From Paracoccus caeni (GTDB lineage Bacteria; Pseudomonadota; Alphaproteobacteria; Rhodobacterales; Rhodobacteraceae), in assembly GCF_016629665.1 (NCBI RefSeq), contig NZ_JAEPRQ010000001.1:992001-1056000 (forward strand): a DNA stretch of 64,000 nucleotides, read 5' to 3'. The notes below the pieces were generated by a model. The model had not been told where the DNA came from and ran no database searches. It worked only from the letters and a program-made list of their open reading frames with translations. The position numbers and the translations under genes were made by a program. Below are positions 4,122 through 13,787 of the stretch, in pieces (positions within the stretch are counted from its first letter, which is position 1; each line of letters opens with the position of its first letter).

Positions 4122-5198
4122 ATGAAGTCGATTGGGATCATTCCACGAGACCGGCTGGTTCATATGCCAAGGCGCTACCATGCGCGGCATGAGTTCTGTT
4201 TTCATCTGCACGATCTCATGGTTGGACTACTGGTGCAGATGGAGAGTACACGTGCCGGCGACGTCAAAATTGATCTTGCTGAGGGCGATCAGGAAAGGCT
4301 GGATAATAGCCCGCATGTACTCGATTTCCTTGCGGCCTCAGGACGGGGCGAGATCGAGCGACGGATCGTCGTGAATCATATGGCGATCGCGCTCTACGCC
4401 GACTTGCTACATTTCGTCTACGAAGCCCTTCGGGCGTTGGAGAAGCGCAAATTCGCTGTTGCCTTTTCACTGCTCCGCAAACCTTTCAAGGAAAGCCTGC
4501 TGATCGCCGCACAGATTTGCGTCGACGAAACTGCCCTGTTTGCGAAGCTCAAGAGTGATGCTGCAAACCTGCTCAACCGAAGAGAGCTGGACGAGCAGCG
4601 GACGAGACAACTCCTCAAAGATGCGATCTCGGTGGCGTGCAAAGGGCCGTGCATTGTTCAAGCCGATACGGTGTACGACACAGTCTTTGACCGGAAGAAC
4701 GCGCTCGGGCTCGCGGGACTCTTTGATAAGGCGACCCATCTCATCACGGAAAACAGCCAAATTCGAACAGAGAACTACAACATAAATTTCATTTTCAAGA
4801 ATCCGTCAGACGACGATGTGTATTCGGGAGAAACCTATCAGCAGATCGCAATGGTGCTGCAGTTTCTCGCTCTCATGCAGATCAATCTTTACGGTCGCAT
4901 GACTGAGATCAGCCGCCACCATCGCAATTGGCTGCTCTTCACTTCGCTGGGAACATTCGAGGCTCTGTTTGCCTCTGGCAGCGCACCTATTACCCGGTTC
5001 GTACGTTCCGCTTTTGGTGAGCTTCTTAAATGCGGCTTATGTGAGAAACGTATGCGGCTATTAAAGACGGACGCGCCACGTTTCTTTATTGCCGAACGGA
5101 TAGAGTGTTCCGAATGCGGCGTTGATCAAGGCTTTCCGTTCGGCTGGCTTCTATCTCAGTTCGACATAAACGTCTTCGACGAGGAGAACGCGGATTGA
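4122..5198 (+). CDS. Orphan protein with C-terminal zinc ribbon, unknown function
   Basis: I do not recognise this 358-aa protein. Visible features are an N-terminal region with a helical hydrophobic stretch (about residues 85-135, including LLHFVYEALRALEKRKF), a mostly helical middle, and near the C-terminus two Cys pairs (CGLCEKR about residue 305 and CSECG about residue 334) that look like a zinc ribbon. No signal peptide. AGGAG lies 6 bases before the start, so translation is credible. Codon use is visibly less GC-biased than in the neighbours (many AAA, ATT, TTT and GAA codons), and it has no operon partner, which suggests horizontal acquisition. The pattern in the first half loosely recalls DUF5677-type proteins seen near defence genes, but that is a weak impression. 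Confidence 0.7.
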   Translation: MKSIGIIPRDRLVHMPRRYHARHEFCFHLHDLMVGLLVQMESTRAGDVKIDLAEGDQERLDNSPHVLDFLAASGRGEIERRIVVNHMAIALYADLLHFVYEALRALEKRKFAVAFSLLRKPFKESLLIAAQICVDETALFAKLKSDAANLLNRRELDEQRTRQLLKDAISVACKGPCIVQADTVYDTVFDRKNALGLAGLFDKATHLITENSQIRTENYNINFIFKNPSDDDVYSGETYQQIAMVLQFLALMQINLYGRMTEISRHHRNWLLFTSLGTFEALFASGSAPITRFVRSAFGELLKCGLCEKRMRLLKTDAPRFFIAERIECSECGVDQGFPFGWLLSQFDINVFDEENAD

Positions 5199-5373: not shown

Positions 5374-6021
5374 TCACCCTAACCTTGCAAACGCCGCCAT
5401 CACCGCGCGCTCTGACTGGTCCAGATATTCGGCCAATATCTGCGAGGCTTCCTCGGGATTGCCCGCTTCCAGCGTCGTAAGGATCTGGCGGTTCCGTTCG
5501 ATATAGGGGCGGTGTAGCATCTCGGGGCTGTCGAGAAGGCCGAAGGCCAGTCGCAACTCCACCACGATCCGCGCGAAGAACGAGATCAGGCGGGGGCTGT
5601 CGGTCAGCGCCACGATGCCCATGTGGAAATCCATATTGGCGCTGCCGACGCCGCGCCAGTCGTCCTTTGCGCGCAACGCCTCGGCCCGTTCCACCGCCTC
5701 GCGCATCCGGGCAACCGCCTGATGGCGGGGCCATGCCTGTGCCAAAGCCGGAATCTCGATCAGGCGGCGGACGCGGAAGATGTCCAGCGTCGAGGCCATC
5801 GAGGGCGTCGCCACATACATGCCGCGATTGGGTTCGTGTTCCAGAATGCCGTCGCGGGTCATCAGCCGGAACGCCTCGCGCAGCGTGTTCCGCGAGATGC
5901 CCAGTTCCGCCGACAGCTTCGCCTCGGACAGTTTCTGTCCCGCCGTCAGTCTGCCATGCGCGATCTCTTCGCGGATGCGGGCCGCGGTTTCTTCGGCAAG
6001 GCTGGGCGGCAGTTCGGTCAT
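5374..6021 (-). CDS. GntR-family regulator, FCD (FadR-like) subfamily
   Basis: DNA-binding repressor (215 aa) with an N-terminal winged helix (about residues 10-72; RLTAGQKLSEAKLSAELGIS then RNTLREAFRLM) and an all-helical FCD effector domain (about 80-205). The Asp and first His of the usual FCD metal site can be seen (NMDFHMG), but the later His positions seem replaced (ERNRQIL; EYLDQSE), so ligand binding may be metal-independent. The start at 6021 was chosen over in-frame upstream codons because it puts the winged helix at the usual distance from the N-terminus. It is divergent from the NRAMP-like and pxp genes and is their probable regulator. Bacillus subtilis uses an IclR-type protein (KipR) at the equivalent place. 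Confidence 0.87.
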   Translation of the reverse strand: MTELPPSLAEETAARIREEIAHGRLTAGQKLSEAKLSAELGISRNTLREAFRLMTRDGILEHEPNRGMYVATPSMASTLDIFRVRRLIEIPALAQAWPRHQAVARMREAVERAEALRAKDDWRGVGSANMDFHMGIVALTDSPRLISFFARIVVELRLAFGLLDSPEMLHRPYIERNRQILTTLEAGNPEEASQILAEYLDQSERAVMAAFARLG

Positions 6022-6173: not shown

Positions 6174-6201
6174 TTGGTCTTATTGTTCAACAATTTAGTA
6201 T
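6174..6201 (+). promoter_or_regulatory. Predicted promoter and GntR operator for the oxoproline cluster
   Basis: A palindrome ATTGTT-C-AACAAT (6182-6194) lies between a weak -35 (TTGGTC, 6174) and a -10-like TAGTAT (6196). FCD-type GntR proteins typically bind TTGT-N-ACAA elements. A further half-site, ATTGTTGAC, occurs at 6215-6223. It lies in the divergent region between the GntR gene and the permease gene, so binding could control both. Predicted from sequence only. Confidence 0.55.
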
Positions 6202-6294: not shown

Positions 6295-7533
6295 ATGAGC
6301 GAACCAGCACCGACCAGTCCCTCGGCCGCCTCTGCCACCATGCGTGGCGGCTTCATGGCGGCGATCTTCCTGATGGCGACATCGGCCATCGGGCCGGGCT
6401 TCATCACCCAGACTGCGACCTTCACCGCCCAGCTTGGCGCGGCCTTTGCCTTTGCGATCCTGGCCTCGATTGTCATCGACTTCGTGGTGCAGTTGAACAT
6501 CTGGCGGATCACGGCGCTGACCGGCAAGCGCGCCTCGGACACGGCGAATGCGGCGATCCCGGGATCGGGCTATCTGCTGACGGTGCTGGTGGTGATCGGC
6601 GGGCTTGCCTTTAACATGGGCAACATCGCCGGGGCCGGGCTTGGTATGAACGCGATGTTCGGGCTGGACCCGAAGATTGGCGGCGCGATCTCGGCCTTTC
6701 TGGCGATCGGGGTGTTTCTGGCCAAGCGGGCCGGGATGCTGCTTGACCGGCTGATGATCATTCTGGGGCTGATGATGATCGGGATGACGCTGGCCGTCGC
6801 GGTGATCTCGAACCCGCCGGTGGGCGAGGCGCTGCGCCAGACGGTCTTCCCCGATGTGATCGATTTCGCCACCATCACCACCATCGTCGGCGGCACGGTC
6901 GGCGGTTACATCACCTATGCGGGCGCGCACCGGATGCTGGATAAGGGTCTGGCAGGGCCGCATAATCTTGCCGCCGTCTCGCGCGCCTCGCTGACCGGGA
7001 TTGCGGTCACCGGCGTCATGCGCTTCGTGCTGTTTCTGGCGATCCTTGGCGTCGTAGCCTCGGGCGTGACGCTGGATCTGTCGGGGCAGGCGGCGAACCC
7101 CGCCGGGCAGGCCTTTGCGGCGGCGCTTGGCGGTTTCGGGATGCGGCTGTTCGGGCTGATCTTCTGGGCGGCGGCGATCACCTCGGTCATCGGGGCGGCC
7201 TATACGTCGGTCAGCTTCCTCACCGTTTTCCGCGACATGGATGAGAAGGGCCGCAATTATTGCACCGTCGCTTTCATCTCGGTCTCGCTGGCGATCTATC
7301 TGATGATCGGCACCACGCCTGCCGCGCTTCTGGTGTTTGTGGGCGGTTTCAACGGGCTGATCCTGCCGATCGGTCTGACCATCTTCACCTATGTCGGCTT
7401 CGCGCGGTCCGACTTGATGGGCGGGCATCATTACAACCGCCCGCTGCTCTATCTTGGTGCGCTGGTCTGCCTGCTGACCTGGTATATGGGCTTCAGCTCC
7501 ATCGGGCCGATCTTCGCCTTCCTGTCCATGTAA
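6295..7533 (+). CDS. NRAMP-fold membrane transporter (YcsG-like), probably not a metal carrier
   Basis: Integral membrane protein (412 aa, about 11 predicted helices) of the NRAMP/LeuT-fold group, at the position of ycsG in the Bacillus ycsF-ycsG-ycsI-kipI-kipA cluster. The first helix reads SAIGPGFITQT, so the metal-binding DPGN of true NRAMP proteins is replaced by GPGF (residues 33-36). The sixth helix has YAGAH (208-212) in place of the MPH element. These losses argue against divalent-metal transport. The context suggests import of 5-oxoproline or a related organic acid, which is my inference. It is first gene of the rightward operon; a hairpin at 7540-7569 separates it from pxpA. Confidence 0.83.
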   Translation: MSEPAPTSPSAASATMRGGFMAAIFLMATSAIGPGFITQTATFTAQLGAAFAFAILASIVIDFVVQLNIWRITALTGKRASDTANAAIPGSGYLLTVLVVIGGLAFNMGNIAGAGLGMNAMFGLDPKIGGAISAFLAIGVFLAKRAGMLLDRLMIILGLMMIGMTLAVAVISNPPVGEALRQTVFPDVIDFATITTIVGGTVGGYITYAGAHRMLDKGLAGPHNLAAVSRASLTGIAVTGVMRFVLFLAILGVVASGVTLDLSGQAANPAGQAFAAALGGFGMRLFGLIFWAAAITSVIGAAYTSVSFLTVFRDMDEKGRNYCTVAFISVSLAIYLMIGTTPAALLVFVGGFNGLILPIGLTIFTYVGFARSDLMGGHHYNRPLLYLGALVCLLTWYMGFSSIGPIFAFLSM

Positions 7534-7588: not shown

Positions 7589-8359
7589 ATGACCGCTACC
7601 ATCGATTTGAACAGCGATCTGGGCGAGGGCTATGGCGCCTGGAAAATGGGCGACGATGCCGCGATGCTGGAGATCGTCAGCTCGGCCAACGTCGCCTGCG
7701 GGTTTCATGCGGGCGATCCGCTGACCATCCGCGCAACCGTGGATCAGGCTGCTGCACGGGGCGTGGCCGTGGGTGCGCATGTGTCCTATCCCGACCGCGT
7801 TGGCTTTGGCCGCCGTCCGATGGACGTGACCTCGGCGGAACTGACGGCAGATGTGATCTACCAGATCGGCGCATTGCAGGGCATCGCCAAAGCGGCCGGC
7901 ACGCGCGTAACCTATGTCAAACCGCATGGCGCGCTTTATAACACCATCGCCAATGATGCCCGGCAGGCCGATGCCGTGATCGCGGCGATCCGCGAGATCG
8001 ATCCCTCGCTGGTCCTGATGGGACTTGCCGGAACGCCGGTGCTGACCCGCGCCCGTGAGGCCGGTCTGCGCGTCGTGGCCGAGGCTTTTGGCGACCGCGC
8101 CTATACGCCCGACGGCCAGCTTGTCTCGCGCCGCGAGAAGGGGGCGGTTCTGCACGACCCGGAACTGGTCGCCGCCCGCATGGTGCGGCTGGCGCGCGAG
8201 GGGGTGCTGGAAGCCATCGACGGATCGACCCTGACGCTTCAGGCGGACAGCATCTGCGTGCATGGCGACAGCGACGGTGCCATTGCCATGGCCCGGCGTA
8301 TCCGTGAGGAACTGGTGACGGCGGGCGTCCTGATCGCGCCATTCGCGGGGGTGGCGTGA
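7589..8359 (+). CDS. pxpA: 5-oxoprolinase subunit A (LamB/YcsF family)
   Basis: Subunit A (256 aa) of the ATP-dependent prokaryotic 5-oxoprolinase PxpABC, which hydrolyses 5-oxo-L-proline to L-glutamate in the cytoplasm. It shows the family hallmarks: N-terminal [11 protein letters not shown], then [19 protein letters not shown] and VKPHGALYN. Length is normal for LamB/YcsF proteins (about 250). A GAGGAGG ribosome-binding site precedes the ATG. The next gene starts on the last base of the stop codon, so they are translationally coupled. Confidence 0.95.
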
Positions 8360-9144
8360 TGCGTCCCGATCCGGATACCGCCCGCAAGGCCCGGCTTGAT
8401 TGCCGCGCAGGAATGATCGCGCCGACCGCCGGACTGGCGCCGGGCTTTACGCAGGTCAATATGATCTCGCTGCCGAAGGACTGGGCATGGGACTTTCTGC
8501 TGTTTGGTCAGCGGAACCCGAAACCCTGCCCGGTTCTGGATGTGACTGATCCCGGCAGCCACCGGACCACGCTGGCCCCCGAGGCCGATCTGCGCAAAGA
8601 CCTGCCGCTTTACCGCGTCTGGCGCGATGGTGTGCTGGCCGATGAATTGCCGGACGCGACCGAGGTTTGGGCCGAACATGCCGATCTGGTGACGTTCCTG
8701 ATTGGCTGCTCGTTCACCTTTGAAACCCCGCTGCAACAGGCCGGGATCGAGATGCGCCATATCGCGCAGGGCAGCAATGTCCCGATGTATCTGACCGACC
8801 GCCCCTGCCGCGAGGCCGGGCGGCTGCATGGACAGATGGTCGTCTCGATGCGCCCGATCCCTGCGGCGCGCGTGGCCGAGGCGGCGATGATCTCGGGCCG
8901 GTTTCCTGCGGTTCATGGCGCGCCCGTCCATATCGGTGCGCCCGAGGGCTTGGGCATCGCGGATCTCTCGAAACCCGATTTCGGCGATCCGGTCCAGGTC
9001 CGCGATGGTGAGGTGCCGGTCTTCTGGGCCTGCGGCGTGACCCCTCAGGCAGCGGTGATGGCGTCGAAGCCGCCATTTGCGATCACCCACGCGCCGGGTC
9101 ATATGTTCATCACCGACGTTCCCGACAGCGAGTGGCAGGTGTGA
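8359..9144 (+). CDS. YcsI/DUF1445 family putative hydro-lyase
   Basis: Cytoplasmic protein (261 aa) of the D-glutamate cyclase-like/DUF1445 family, annotated in general as a putative hydro-lyase. Typical blocks are an N-terminal Arg-rich segment followed by [10 protein letters not shown], then [10 protein letters not shown] and a C-terminal FWACGVTPQ with [10 protein letters not shown] chose the ATG that overlaps the pxpA stop (TGATG) over the GTG one codon earlier. It is found with pxpABC in many genomes; its role in oxoproline metabolism is not established, though lactam/amino-acid interconversion would fit. Confidence 0.88.
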
Positions 9145-9146
9145 CG

Positions 9147-10718
9147 ATGCGATTTCTTCCCGTTGGTCCACGGACCCTGTTGGTCGAGCTTGCCGATCTG
9201 AACGAAACGCTGGCTCTGTTCGACGCGCTTCTGGCCGATCCGATCGAGGGCGTCGCCGAAATCATCCCCGCCGCCCGCACGCTGATGGTGCGGACCGCGC
9301 CGGGCTTTGCCGCCGATGCTGCGCTGGCCGGGGCGATCCTTGCCAGAAAACCCGCACCCGGCACCGAGCGCGAGGAAGGCCCGATTGAGACGGTCGAGAT
9401 CCCCGTCACCTATGATGGCGAGGATTTGCAGGATGTCGCGGGCTTCATGGGCCTGTCGGTGGCCGAGGTTATCGCCGCGCATCAGGAAACGACTTGGCAG
9501 GTGGCCTTCTGCGGCTTCGCGCCCGGCTTTGCCTACATGACCTGCGATGATCCGCGCTTTGATATGCCGCGCAGACCCGCGCCCCGGACCCGGATTCCGG
9601 CAGGCTCGGTCGCCTTGGCGGCGCGGTTCTGTGGCATCTATCCGCAGGATACGCCGGGGGGCTGGCAATTGATCGGCACGACCAAGGTGCCGATGTGGGA
9701 TTTGTCCCGCGATCCGCCCGCGCTGCTGCGCCCCGGCGTGCGGGCGCGCTTTGTCGAGGGGGCGGCCGAGGTTCACCCCTCTGCTGCGATCACCGAGCCG
9801 CCGAAAACTGCGGCACTGACGATCCTCTCGACCGCCTTCCCGGTGGTGTTTCAGGATGAGGGGCGACCCGGTCAGGGCGGGCAGGGGGTTTCGGCCTCGG
9901 GCGCGCTGGACATGGGCGCACTGCACCTTGCGAACCGGCAGGTTGGCAATCCCGCCGATGCCCCGGCGCTGGAACTGACCCTTGGGCCGGTTCGCCTGCG
10001 CGCGGATCGCAGCGTGACCCTGGCCCTGACCGGGGCCGCCGACCGGGCCGAGATCATCGCGGGCGGCGCCAAGCTGCCGGTCCCGCAAGGCGCCTTTGCG
10101 CTGGATAAAGGCGACGAATTGCTGATCCATCCGCCATCGCGGGGAATGCGCAGCTATCTAGCGCTGCGGGGCGGCTATGACGTGGCGCCGGTGCTTGGCT
10201 CTGCCTCGACCGACACGCTGGCCTTTGTCGGGCCGGATGCGTTGAAGGAAGGGGCGGTGCTTGGGCAGGCGGATGGCAAAACATTCGCCGCCGCGATGCC
10301 CGAAGATCAGGCCGATCTGCCACAGGCGGGCGAGGTGATTGAACTGCCGGTAACGCTTGGCCCCCGGGCCGACTGGTTCACGCCCGCGATGATCCGCCAT
10401 TTCCTGACGCAGGAATGGCTGGTGACGCCGCAATCCTCTCGTGTCGGCATCCGCCTTGAAGGCGCGCAGCCGATGACGCGCGAGGATGCCAATGAGCTAC
10501 CCTCGGAAGGGACCGAGACCGGCGCGATCCAGCTCCCCCATTCCGGTCAGCCGGTGCTGTTTCTGGCCGACCATCCGCTGACCGGCGGCTATCCGGTCAT
10601 CGCGACGCTGATGCCGAAGGCGCTGGACCTTGCCGGTCAGATCCCGCCCGGCGCGCGTATCCGTTTCACCGCCGACCAAGATTTTGCCCCCATCGACCCC
10701 AGTGAGGCCCAGCCATGA
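9147..10718 (+). CDS. pxpBC: Fused 5-oxoprolinase subunits B and C (PxpB-PxpC, KipI-KipA fusion)
   Basis: A 523-aa fusion of the AHS1 (KipI/PxpB, about residues 1-205) and AHS2 (KipA/PxpC, about 215-523) domains. PxpB marks are [24 protein letters not shown] and [10 protein letters not shown]. PxpC marks are [27 protein letters not shown] and a late RVGIRLEG. In most bacteria these are two genes. AHS1-AHS2 is also the carboxyltransferase part of urea carboxylase, which matters because the next gene encodes a biotin carboxylase with a biotin carrier domain. ATG 9147 follows AGGTG by 5 bases and was preferred to an in-frame GTG 15 bases earlier. The 3' end overlaps the next start by 4 bases. 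Confidence 0.93.
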
Positions 10719-12481
10719 CCCTGTTCGCCCAAGGCCCCGACCTGCAACCGCTGAACCGCCTGCTGATCGCCAATCGCGGCGAGATCGCCGTCCGGGTGAT
10801 CCGCGCCTGTCGCGACGAGGGGATCGAAAGCATCGCCATCTATGCCGACAGCGACCGCGATGCCCCCTTCGTGGCAATGGCCGACCACGCCTATGCGCTG
10901 GACGGCGAAAAGCCCGCCGACACCTATCTGAACGCCGACAAGATCATCGCCATTGCCAAAAAGGCTGGCGCGGATGCGGTCCATCCCGGCTATGGCTTTC
11001 TGTCGGAACGCGCCGATTTCGCCGCGGCTGTGCAACAGGCCGGTCTGATCTGGATCGGTCCCGATCCCAAGGTGATCGAGGCGCTTGGCGACAAGATCGA
11101 AGCCCGCCGTATCGCCGAGGCTGTCGGTGCGCCGCTGGTCGCGGGCACGCCCGGCCCGGTCGCCAATGGCGACGAGGCTTTGGCCTTCGCGAAAGAGCAC
11201 GGGTTGCCCATCGCGATCAAGGCGGCCTTTGGCGGCGGCGGACGCGGCATGAAGGTGGCGTGGCGGCTGGAAGAGGTTGAAGAGCTGTTCGATTCCGCCA
11301 CCCGTGAGGCGCTGACCGCCTTCGGTCGCGGCGAATGCTTTATCGAGCAGTTTCTGGACCGTCCGCGCCATGTCGAGGCGCAGGTGCTGGCCGACAAACA
11401 TGGCAACGTAAAGGTCATCGGCACCCGCGATTGTTCGCTGCAACGCCGTAACCAGAAGCTGGTGGAAGAGGCGCCCGCGCCCTTCCTGACCGACGATCAA
11501 CGCGCCCGCATCCACGATTCGGCCCGCGAGATTTGCGCCCATGCCGGTTACAGCGGCGCGGGGACGGTTGAATATCTGCTGTCGGCGAACGGGACGATCT
11601 CGTTCCTTGAGGTCAATACCCGCCTTCAGGTCGAGCATCCGGTGACCGAGGAAACCACCGGCATCGATCTGGTGCGCGGCATGATCCGCGTAGCGCGCGG
11701 TGCGAAGCTGGCCGATGAAAACGTGCCCGAACCGCGCGGCCATTCGATCGAGTTCCGCATCAATGCCGAAGACCCCGCGCGGGGCTTTCTGCCGACGCCG
11801 GGACCGATCAACGTCTTCGATGCACCGTCCGGGCCGGGGGTGCGGCTGGATAGCGGTGTGGTTGCAGGCTCGAACGTCTCTGGCAGTTTCGATTCGATGA
11901 TGGCGAAGCTGATCGTGACCGGCGCGACACGGGCCGAGGCTTTGCAACGCGCCGCCCGCGCCTTGGCAGAGTTCCGCATCGAAGGCGTGGCGACTGTGCT
12001 GCCCTTTGACCGCGCGGTTCTGGCCGAGGCCGATTTCCGTGCCGATGACGGCGATTTCCGCGTCCATACCCGCTGGATCGAAACCGACTTCGCCGACCGT
12101 CTGGCCGAGGCAGTCGCCCCACATGATCGCGTCACGCCTGCTTCTGCGCCGAACCTTTTGCGCGTCGCCATCGAGATCGACGGCAAGCGGCATCAGCTTG
12201 GTTTGCCCGCGAATATGCTGGCCGCCGCGCCCCAAGCCGGAGCTGCTGATAGCCAGACGGAAGCGGTGGATGAGACCGCGATCACCGCTCCGGTTCCGGG
12301 CACGCTGACCGTCTGGCAGGTCGAGGACGGGGCCGAGGTGCAGCCGGGCGATGTCGTGGCCGTCATGGAGGCGATGAAGATGGAAACCCGGGTCGAGGCG
12401 CATCGGGCAGGCCGGCTGAAACGCGAGGTTGATGCGGGTGCCACATTGCCCTTCGGCGCCGTGCTGGGCCGTATCGAGTGA
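10715..12481 (+). CDS. Biotin carboxylase-biotin carrier fusion (acyl-CoA/urea carboxylase-type alpha subunit)
   Basis: A 588-aa two-domain enzyme. Residues about 10-455 form an ATP-grasp biotin carboxylase ([50 protein letters not shown]). A linker follows, then a C-terminal biotinyl domain with EAMKMET, where Lys555 is the biotinylation site. It carboxylates biotin using ATP and bicarbonate. There is no acyl-CoA carboxyltransferase gene nearby; the ATGA overlap with the PxpB-PxpC fusion suggests that the AHS1-AHS2 protein is its carboxyltransferase partner. The substrate is unknown. It is last gene of this operon. Confidence 0.92.
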
Positions 12482-12587: not shown

Positions 12588-13787
12588 ATGCTGTCGCGGC
12601 AGTGGGGAACCAAAGAACATCGTGACTGGCTGATCGAGGATGCCGGTCAGCAATTCGCATTCTATCGCGGCTCTTTGAACCCCGATGGCGGCTTCGACTA
12701 TCTTGACGACGATGGCCGACCGCTGCCCGATCAGGTGCATGAACTTCACGCCACAGGCCGGATGGTCCATTCCTTCGCGCTTGGACATGCGGCCGGGCTG
12801 GTCGGCGATACGGTGATGATCGATCACGGGCTGGACGCATTGTGGAACCGTCACCGTGACGCGGAACATGGCGGCTATGTTTGGTCCTTCGGTGCTGATG
12901 GTCAGGTCGCGGATGGCAGCAAGCTGGCCTATGGCCATGCTTTCGTTTTGCTGGCGGCGGCGGGCGCGAAGGTGCTGGGCCACCCCGATGCCGACCGGTT
13001 GCTTGACGATATCACCGAGGTGATTGACCGCCGCTATTGGGACGCCCCGACCGGGCGCATGCGCGAGGAATATGCCCGCGACTGGTCCGAGATTTCCGAC
13101 TATCGCGGCATGAACGCCAATATGCACAGCACCGAGGCGTTTCTTGCCGCCTTCGAGGCGACGGGTGAGCGGCTGTTTCTGGACCGCGCTCTTGGCCTGA
13201 TCCGCTTTTTCGTGGGTGAAATGGGTGCCGCGAATGGCTGGCGGCTGCCCGAGCATTTCGACCTGAACTGGCAGCCCGACCCCGATTACGAGGGCAATCC
13301 GATGTTCCGCCCCGCAGGCACGACGCCGGGCCACGCTTTCGAATGGGCGCGGCTGGCGGTGCAGGCATGGGATCTGGACGGTCGCCGGGACGGCGATCTG
13401 CTGGATTGGGCGAAAAGCCTTTATCATCAGGCGCGGGCCGATGGCTGGAAGCCCGATGACGGGGGCAGCGTCGTCTATACCGTCGATCAGCAGGGGCGGG
13501 TGCTGCGCGACAACCGCTACTGGTGGCCGGTGACCGAAGCAATCGGCACCGCCGCCGTGCTGATCAAGACCGGCGAGGATTTGGCGGGTGATTACAAAGG
13601 CTATTGGGACAGCGCCTGCGCCCATTTCGTCGATGAGGATCGTGGCGGCTGGTATCCCGATCAGCATCGCGACGGTGTCCAATTCTCGGGCAAGCCCGAC
13701 ATCTATCACTCGATTCAAGCGGTGCTGTTCCCGCTGGTGCCGGAAATATCCGGCCTGACCCGCGCTTTGGAGAAGGTGCGGGGGTAA
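12588..13787 (+). CDS. AGE-family sugar epimerase/isomerase
   Basis: Cytoplasmic (alpha/alpha)6-barrel enzyme (399 aa) of the N-acylglucosamine 2-epimerase superfamily, which includes mannose isomerase, cellobiose 2-epimerase and sulfoquinovose isomerase YihS. Visible family features are the HELHATGRMVHSFALG segment, RDWSEISDYRGMNANMHS, FEATGE in the middle and RYWWPVTEAIG near residue 310, which supply the usual catalytic His and Arg residues. It is the first gene of the sugar cluster. Substrate not deducible; the glucose-type transporter downstream favours an aldose/ketose conversion of a hexose-like compound. Confidence 0.87.
   Translation: MLSRQWGTKEHRDWLIEDAGQQFAFYRGSLNPDGGFDYLDDDGRPLPDQVHELHATGRMVHSFALGHAAGLVGDTVMIDHGLDALWNRHRDAEHGGYVWSFGADGQVADGSKLAYGHAFVLLAAAGAKVLGHPDADRLLDDITEVIDRRYWDAPTGRMREEYARDWSEISDYRGMNANMHSTEAFLAAFEATGERLFLDRALGLIRFFVGEMGAANGWRLPEHFDLNWQPDPDYEGNPMFRPAGTTPGHAFEWARLAVQAWDLDGRRDGDLLDWAKSLYHQARADGWKPDDGGSVVYTVDQQGRVLRDNRYWWPVTEAIGTAAVLIKTGEDLAGDYKGYWDSACAHFVDEDRGGWYPDQHRDGVQFSGKPDIYHSIQAVLFPLVPEISGLTRALEKVRG

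Follow-up and report, generated by a model that had tools for sequence, protein, structure and literature searches.

Urea carboxylase, PxpABC and the Paracoccus caeni locus

Urea carboxylase and allophanate hydrolase couple ATP through the carboxylation of an amide nitrogen before hydrolysis. Urea carboxylase itself (TIGR02712; KlUC, 3va7, and KlUA, 5i8i) is made up of a biotin carboxylase (BC), the carboxyltransferase (CT) domains CT_A_B and CT_C_D, and a biotin carrier. The other described system is PxpABC, the majority type of 5-oxoprolinase in the prokaryote genomes analysed in PMC13274462 (papers are cited here by PMC number). Opening of the 5-oxoproline ring is uphill, with a Keq of about 0.035 (PMC13274462), and therefore ATP must be coupled to it, and the mode of ATP use by PxpABC has so far merely been assumed. 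A study from 2011 left open whether stand-alone homologues of the urea carboxylase transferase pair with other biotin carboxylases or carry out another reaction (PMC3199775). Here we describe a gene pair at 9147 to 12481 of a 64,000-nucleotide stretch of the Paracoccus caeni genome (contig NZ_JAEPRQ010000001.1; the whole stretch is called the window), in which the gene for a fusion of PxpB and PxpC (PxpBC) overlaps with that for a fusion of BC and biotin carboxyl carrier protein (BC-BCCP). The two genes are a real, conserved partnership, their products very probably make up one shared enzyme, and this enzyme probably acts on 5-oxoproline. That it works by carboxylation is a proposition with about equal chances of being right and wrong.

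The window has the same domain set as urea carboxylase but has it on two chains, with the order of the CT domains reversed, a BC of another lineage, Arg in place of the general-base Lys and PxpA in place of allophanate hydrolase. With the PxpABC 5-oxoprolinases of the B. subtilis, E. coli and C. glutamicum type it has in common the PxpA, PxpB and PxpC domains, a YcsG/PxpT-like transporter and a PxpR-type operator, whereas it differs from them in that PxpB and PxpC are fused and a BC-BCCP gene is in the operon. The features of the pair are as follows.

9147 to 10718, plus strand: PxpB-PxpC fusion, 523 amino acids (aa), 55.0 kDa, putative carboxyltransferase subunit (CT_C_D and CT_A_B)
9570 to 9572, plus strand: codon of Arg147 (P0001 numbering), equivalent by alignment to the general-base Lys1605 of urea amidolyase
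10715 to 12481, plus strand: BC-BCCP, 588 aa, 62.7 kDa, AccA3 type (Pfam; best PDB match AccA3)
12377 to 12379, plus strand: codon of Lys555, the presumed biotinylation site (sequence motif EAMKM)

The open reading frame (ORF) of the fusion has an alternative start, GTG at 9132, from which the P0001 numbering counts. Its Pfam domains are CT_C_D (6-199) and CT_A_B (252-513), and those of BC-BCCP are Biotin_carb_N, CPSase_L_D2, Biotin_carb_C and Biotin_lipoyl; every one of these domains exceeds its curated cut-off. The first-pass annotation, made from the DNA letters, had described a 4-base overlap of the two fusions, a full urea carboxylase domain set across the two genes and a biotin lysine at residue 555. 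These descriptions were borne out, as both ORFs and a 4-nt overlap (ATGA) were found, Pfam recovered BC, CT_A_B, CT_C_D and the carrier, and Lys555 is the lysine of EAMKM. This motif and the BC catalytic motifs are intact in the window protein. In the public record of Paracoccus sp. TOH, which has the same arrangement, the two proteins carry separate names, 'urea amidolyase family protein' for the one and 'biotin carboxylase N-terminal domain-containing protein' for the other.

Conservation of the gene pair

When genome contigs were scanned with the fusion, BC-BCCP was found to adjoin it in 60 of 64 relatives, two of the 60 being on one plasmid. As to the four exceptions, one locus is cut by a contig end (L120), an actinobacterium has its BC-BCCP, at 58% identity, encoded elsewhere in the genome (L121), and two have none (L096 and L104). 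Samples chosen independently of the fusion sequence were 61 genomes of the family, which gave 46 further stretches, and 120 genomes of the phylum (Pseudomonadota, judging from the Paracoccus relatives of the window), which gave 40; the 120 genomes have 46 CT_C_D places, of which two (the window and L033) were already included and four with urea-carboxylase-sized frames were left out. A scripted classification of 151 places (the window and L013-L162) gave 67 loci of the window type (T3), 10 loci in which PxpB and PxpC are unfused with a shorter BC gene beside them (T2), 12 single-chain urea carboxylases (UC), 60 loci with no BC nearby (noBC) and two incomplete ones (L041 and L120). PxpB and PxpC are fused in 66 of the T3 loci and are separate genes in one (L141). 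ATGA, GTGA or TTGA is present at the PxpBC stop in 52 of the 67, as read at the stop alone.

When the best candidates, up to 11 per genome, were scored in the 120 phylum genomes, BC-BCCP was found among them at E<=1e-140 in six genomes, in seven copies that all adjoin a T3 PxpBC, and these six genomes and seven loci are exactly those with a T3 PxpBC. A 289-genome sample of the class, in which the window genome alone was matched for either protein, adds little because no more than 4-5 candidates were scored in each genome. In an actinobacterial sample around Austwickia the fusion was matched in 29 of 119 genomes, and Austwickia and 20 of the other 28 were followed up. All 15 T3-like genomes among these (Austwickia and 14 others) have BC-BCCP at E<=1e-130, 11 at 58-62% identity and four at 48%; it lies directly after a fused PxpBC in L168, about 2.3 kb off on the other strand in L175, and elsewhere in the rest. 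Six genomes that are not T3-like (G519, G480, G517, G507, G505 and G478) are outside this count, and three of the six had no match at E<=1e-130. AccA3 is a housekeeping protein in actinobacteria and therefore the presence of BC-BCCP in the T3-like actinobacterial genomes does not discriminate.

Candidate partners in the genome and structural relatives

The window genome (4.19 Mb in 20 contigs) has a single CT_C_D domain, which is that of the PxpBC fusion, Biotin_carb_C at five places and Carboxyl_trans at four. The remaining four carboxylases were assigned from size and adjacency. They are probably AccC (with AccA and AccD), a pyruvate carboxylase on a single chain, and two alpha subunits (716 and 677 aa), both with a CT gene at a distance of about 3 kb, and all four Carboxyl_trans places would belong to acetyl-CoA carboxylase and the two alpha subunits. 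Since on this assignment the other four carboxylases would be served, PxpBC is the sole remaining candidate transferase for the window BC-BCCP. The first-pass annotation had seen no other CT gene nearby and had pointed to a free acyl-CoA carboxyltransferase as the partner that would speak against a pair with PxpBC; the cluster indeed has no Carboxyl_trans gene and no unassigned one was found in the whole genome, and on this ground BC-BCCP as an orphan of an acyl-CoA carboxylase was set aside.

The best PDB match of the window BC-BCCP is AccA3 (713.8 bits, residues 13-587), and it is an alpha chain of the AccA3 type. In mycobacteria several acyl-CoA carboxylases make use of AccA3 (PMC11001197) and the M. 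tuberculosis protein is likewise common to several, whereas the window BC-BCCP sits in a PxpBC operon. PDB entry 9yx5 (released 2025-11-26), known here from its title and chain names, which do not tell which chain the pair touches, has AccA3 and MSMEG_0435-MSMEG_0436 bound in the Mycobacterium smegmatis long chain acyl-CoA carboxylase complex; its chains named allophanate hydrolase subunits 1 and 2 are of the KipI/KipA type and match the window fusion. The M. smegmatis system (the pair alone is 3mml) is thus like that of the window in having a KipI/KipA-type pair, with most of the T3 residues as judged by eye, in a complex that holds an AccA3-type BC-BCCP, but its PxpB and PxpC are separate chains whereas those of the window are fused. 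An AlphaFold model of the fusion (pLDDT 89.1, pTM 0.87, 35 sequences) matched 3mml_A with Z 36.8 (rmsd 1.7, 284 residues, 37% identity), urea amidolyase 5i8i with Z 32.4 (rmsd 3.1, 300 residues, 29% identity) and 9yx5_W with Z 23.9 (rmsd 2.7, 207 residues, 42% identity), and it also matched the TTHA0988 structure. Among open-licence papers none was found that deals with 9yx5, and none that describes a biotin carboxylase gene within a 5-oxoproline cluster.

Ancestry and relation to urea carboxylase

Trees were made with FastTree after thinning by identity. In the PxpC+PxpB tree the T3 loci are one clade, with L096 and L104 inside it, nested among actinobacterial PxpB and PxpC that have much the same residues. 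In the BC tree, for which Austwickia (L163) was the sole actinobacterial source of a BC-BCCP, the T3 BC-BCCP grouped with the Austwickia protein (support 0.91). AccC, UC, T2 and the two alpha chains of acyl-CoA carboxylases fell outside this group. T3 PxpBC groups with oxoprolinase-type PxpBC and T3 BC with an actinobacterial BC-BCCP, and therefore a pair of actinobacterial kind is indicated by both partners. Neither part groups with urea carboxylase, and a urea carboxylase split by descent was ruled out on these trees.

In K. lactis urea amidolyase Lys1605 is most likely the general base (PMC5770610). By HMMER alignment it is the Lys of TKYNPSRT and its equivalent in the fusion is Arg147; the position is Lys in 12/12 UC and 8/10 T2 loci and Arg in all 67 T3 loci. 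This Arg147 may bind the carboxylate of 5-oxoproline, a group that is absent from urea. Against the single-chain model TIGR02712, with a cut-off of 1303.85 bits, the two window chains scored 139.7 and 511.9 bits. An allophanate hydrolase above 250 bits was found in none of the 67 T3 loci, three of which have a weaker amidase, compared to six of the 12 UC loci used as control, the search being confined to the loci. As far as sequence can tell, the window pair is not a urea carboxylase. The fusion also stayed below the NCBIfam equivalog cut-offs for PxpC (175.1 against 500 bits) and PxpB (123.3 against 145.55 bits).

The interpretation given in the first-pass annotation is therefore partly supported. 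That the two genes are one system is upheld by their linkage, by the joint phylogenetic profile and by 9yx5 of the mycobacterial relatives, whereas a split urea carboxylase by descent is contradicted by the trees and by the Arg. The analogy to urea carboxylase is a good one for the way in which the pair might work and not for its membership.

5-Oxoproline as the probable substrate

In C. glutamicum PxpR binds 5-oxoproline (KD 726 nM) and represses pxpTABC, the proposed site being agattgttcaacaatct, and growth on 5-oxoproline needs PxpT (PMC13274462). The genes and sites upstream of the pair in the window are the following.

5374 to 6021, minus strand: regulator of the GntR/FCD kind, probably the counterpart of PxpR, oriented divergently from the cluster (Pfam GntR and FCD)
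6182 to 6194, no strand: palindrome ATTGTTCAACAAT, core of the proposed Corynebacterium glutamicum PxpR site (exact motif match)
6295 to 7533, plus strand: transporter of the Nramp superfamily, YcsG/PxpT-like, with a putative role in the uptake of 5-oxoproline (78.5 bits with Pfam Nramp against a cut-off of 29.8)
7589 to 8359, plus strand: PxpA (LamB/YcsF), putative lactam-opening hydrolase (Pfam 348.9 bits)
8356 to 9144, plus strand: DUF1445 / D-glutamate cyclase family protein (Pfam D-Glu_cyclase 231.2 bits)

The ORF of the regulator is open to 6159 and its start at 6021 was picked by eye. With NCBIfam models PxpA scored 383 bits (PxpA subfamily, cut-off 226), the DUF1445 protein 409.9 bits (putative hydro-lyase, cut-off 324) and the transporter 32.8 bits, which is under the cut-off of 50 for Nramp_1 (divalent metal transporter).

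The palindrome lies between the regulator and the transporter, in the promoter, and with at most one mismatch allowed 0.02 matches are expected in the window. At the same stringency the motif was found at the operon 5' end in 40 of the 67 T3 loci and in none of the 60 noBC, 10 T2 and 12 UC loci. There were 12 further matches in T3 loci outside the operon 5' windows, L168 has the motif beside a GntR gene, and L170, which is not T3-like, has one match with one mismatch. A homologue of the GntR/FCD regulator above 60 bits is present in 46/67 T3 loci and in 0/82 of the other classified loci. PxpA is present in all T3 and all T2 loci, in 53 of the 60 noBC loci and in none of the UC loci. The operator, the presence of PxpA in every T3 locus and the lack of an allophanate hydrolase above 250 bits make 5-oxoproline the best candidate. 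The suggestion of the first-pass annotation that the pair might act on a lactam or amide thus stands in the form of 5-oxoproline, which is likely from the PxpR core site and from PxpA being always near. Transcripts of M. smegmatis 0435/0436 went up under nitrogen limitation (ratios 2.40 and 2.17) and are listed under urea (PMC4617892), and such a rise fits with nitrogen scavenging.

Proposed mechanism and its alternatives

The explanation that we consider the best as a whole, although it is as apt to fail as to hold, is a two-chain urea-carboxylase-like biotin enzyme that activates 5-oxoproline for PxpA. BC-BCCP would make carboxybiotin on its own carrier domain from ATP and bicarbonate, and PxpBC, as the carboxyltransferase, would carry the carboxyl group over to 5-oxoproline, most simply at the ring nitrogen. 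PxpA would then open the activated lactam to N-carboxyglutamate, which would lose CO2 to give glutamate. The net result would be an ATP-driven 5-oxoprolinase, parallel to urea carboxylase with allophanate hydrolase. With the PxpT-like transporter importing 5-oxoproline and the PxpR-like regulator sensing it, the scheme would account for all the genes of the cluster except DUF1445. At the level of residues, 11 of the 248 UC-invariant columns (P46, R152, V160, Y170, G176, Q179, N268, N273, V431, R441 and D480) are conserved in 90% or more of T2 (8 loci) and T3 (67 loci) and in less than 60% of noBC (55 loci); this comparison leaves out five noBC loci (L096, L104, L121, L124 and L137) and two T2 loci (L125 and L144) that the tree placed elsewhere. 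These shared residues may include the biotin site and they may be ancestral.

Several observations weigh against carboxylation or against parts of the scheme. The Arg at the Lys1605 position of all 67 T3 loci is also present in 60/60 noBC loci. The mean retention of UC-invariant residues in T3 compared to noBC is 0.29 against 0.23 in PxpB and 0.45 against 0.41 in PxpC, which is hardly above that of PxpBC without a BC, and therefore the overall similarity of T3 to UC was dropped as proof of carboxyl transfer and only the eleven shared residues are used as evidence. Of the 67 T3 loci, some of which are cut, 25 were seen to have the transporter and 26 to have DUF1445, and thus neither is a constant companion of T3; the PxpR operator was not found in 27 of the 67. 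The loci L096 and L104, which are metagenome-assembled and belong to the T3 clade, lack a BC in their neighborhood, and their assemblies contain no AccA3-type BC-BCCP, which means either a loss of biotin dependence or incomplete assemblies. PxpABC was reportedly reconstituted in vitro from recombinant proteins by Niehaus in 2017. In B. subtilis and C. glutamicum pxpABC without a BC is needed for 5-oxoproline use (PMC13274462), and so PxpBC does not require a BC partner encoded in its own operon. PxpB and PxpC are assumed in print to phosphorylate 5-oxoproline, with Li, Seddon and Meister 1988 and a 2019 paper as the sources (PMC13274462), and PMC6061476 connects the 1988 work with the P. putida enzyme, for which a trapped intermediate is reported, as known from a title, and phosphorylation is given in a secondary statement. 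If the enzymes are the same, this trapped intermediate would count against carboxylation. Finally, MSMEG_0435-0436 in 9yx5 could be a regulator.

The BC-less clusters, the Arg common to noBC loci, L096 and L104, and the secondary source on the P. putida enzyme all favor an alternative in which PxpBC phosphorylates 5-oxoproline for PxpA and BC-BCCP supplies ATP chemistry, bicarbonate or regulation with no net carboxylation of the lactam. We regard this as rather unlikely, and what stands against it is that 60 of the 64 relatives have BC-BCCP next to the fusion, with catalytic and biotin motifs intact in the window protein, and that scans with Pfam and NCBIfam found no nucleotide-binding family in PxpBC. 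It is quite improbable that the pair is a carboxylase for some other substrate, be it a different lactam, a cyclic imide or amide, or urea. Urea carboxylase does use the same carboxyltransferase fold and the M. smegmatis pair is induced under nitrogen limitation in a list headed by urea, but the window cluster has a PxpR-type operator and PxpA, no allophanate hydrolase above 250 bits was found in the T3 loci as compared to half of the UC loci, and the urea carboxylase lysine is replaced by Arg. The sharing of AccA3 by several mycobacterial acyl-CoA carboxylases and its presence with MSMEG_0435-0436 in such a complex in 9yx5 would agree with a role of PxpBC in the regulation or docking of the alpha subunit of an acyl-CoA carboxylase, in which case BC-BCCP would make malonyl- or methylmalonyl-CoA. 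This is very unlikely considering that the genome has no unassigned Carboxyl_trans and the cluster none at all, that among the candidates scored in the 120 genomes BC-BCCP was found only beside PxpBC, and that the rest of the cluster is a 5-oxoproline cluster. That two unrelated genes are neighbors in one operon by chance is hardly credible; nothing was found in its favor except the different ancestries of the two parts, and it is opposed by the co-location of all seven BC-BCCP copies in the phylum sample, by the linkage among the relatives and by 9yx5.

The Pseudomonas putida enzyme and the meaning of the pairing

Component A of the P. putida enzyme studied by the Meister group has polypeptides of 64 and 51 kDa in a hexamer of dimers and is a 5-oxoproline-dependent ATPase, and component B is 82 kDa (PMC8453981); an earlier paper by the authors of PMC8453981 gives the P. 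putida subunits as 75 and 63 kDa and states that the sequence is not reported (PMC6061476). The Pseudomonas T3 proteins are about 61, 56 and 27 kDa, the last taken three times to be set against component B, when counted from the first Met, the fusion of L112 having no early Met; in E. coli, YbgK has only 310 residues and YbgJ only 218. This agreement in size is a lead and not an identification. It is possible, but doubtful, that the pair is a biotin-dependent 5-oxoprolinase that works by carboxylation and not by phosphorylation, and it may even be the enzyme purified by the Meister group. If that were true, the phosphorylation assumed for PxpB and PxpC would rest on an enzyme carrying a biotin carboxylase, and the 5-oxoproline-dependent ATPase seen in the absence of component B would be a futile cycle of carboxylation and decarboxylation.

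As to the question left open in 2011, the T3 lineage favors, by genomics, the pairing with other biotin carboxylases, with an unusually tight partner, and the question is open to direct assay. We know of no precedent among biotin enzymes for the activation of a lactam by carboxybiotin. If carboxylation is confirmed, it would add a new reaction to those of biotin enzymes and might serve as a tool for hydrolyzing lactams.

Other lineages with biotin carboxylases and neighboring genes

BC genes adjoin PxpBC in at least three other lineages, which are T2, L125/L144 and L170/L185/L187. The main T2 group is separate from T3 in the PxpC+PxpB tree and L125 and L144 fall elsewhere. The 10 T2 clusters (e.g., L050-L054 and L154) have PxpA, a biotin carboxylase and PxpB/PxpC as the window has, but as separate genes and of other BC and PxpBC lineages, and 8/10 keep the Lys and Tyr of the urea carboxylase type. 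The T2 order is PxpA-BCCP-BC-PxpB-PxpC (L050-L054, L058, L154 and L158), with a PxpB that has the urea-carboxylase Lys-Tyr pair, and the T2 BCCP, as seen by eye, has VMK[TS]F around its lysine. From these residues the T2 lineage is a stronger candidate for urea-carboxylase-like chemistry than the window type. L170, L185 and L187 are an actinobacterial lineage with the order PxpB-PxpC-BC-DUF1445-PxpA, which is apart from both T2 and T3 in the tree.

A second biotinyl/lipoyl-like domain was seen near the BC or BCCP genes of three loci, at L144:6456-6932(+), L137:11787-13256(-) and L125:3328-3816(-). It matches Pfam Biotin_lipoyl, in two of the three below the cut-off, has no MKM-type lysine motif, and is possibly an unbiotinylated carrier-like subunit. 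In the window itself, a 358-aa ORF at 4122-5198 (+), with no Pfam match at E<=0.001, adjoins the regulator of the cluster. A gene for an AGE-family epimerase/isomerase at 12588-13787 (+), which is D-mannose isomerase-like and scored below the NCBIfam cut-off, begins 106 bases past BC-BCCP and is judged to lie outside the cluster.

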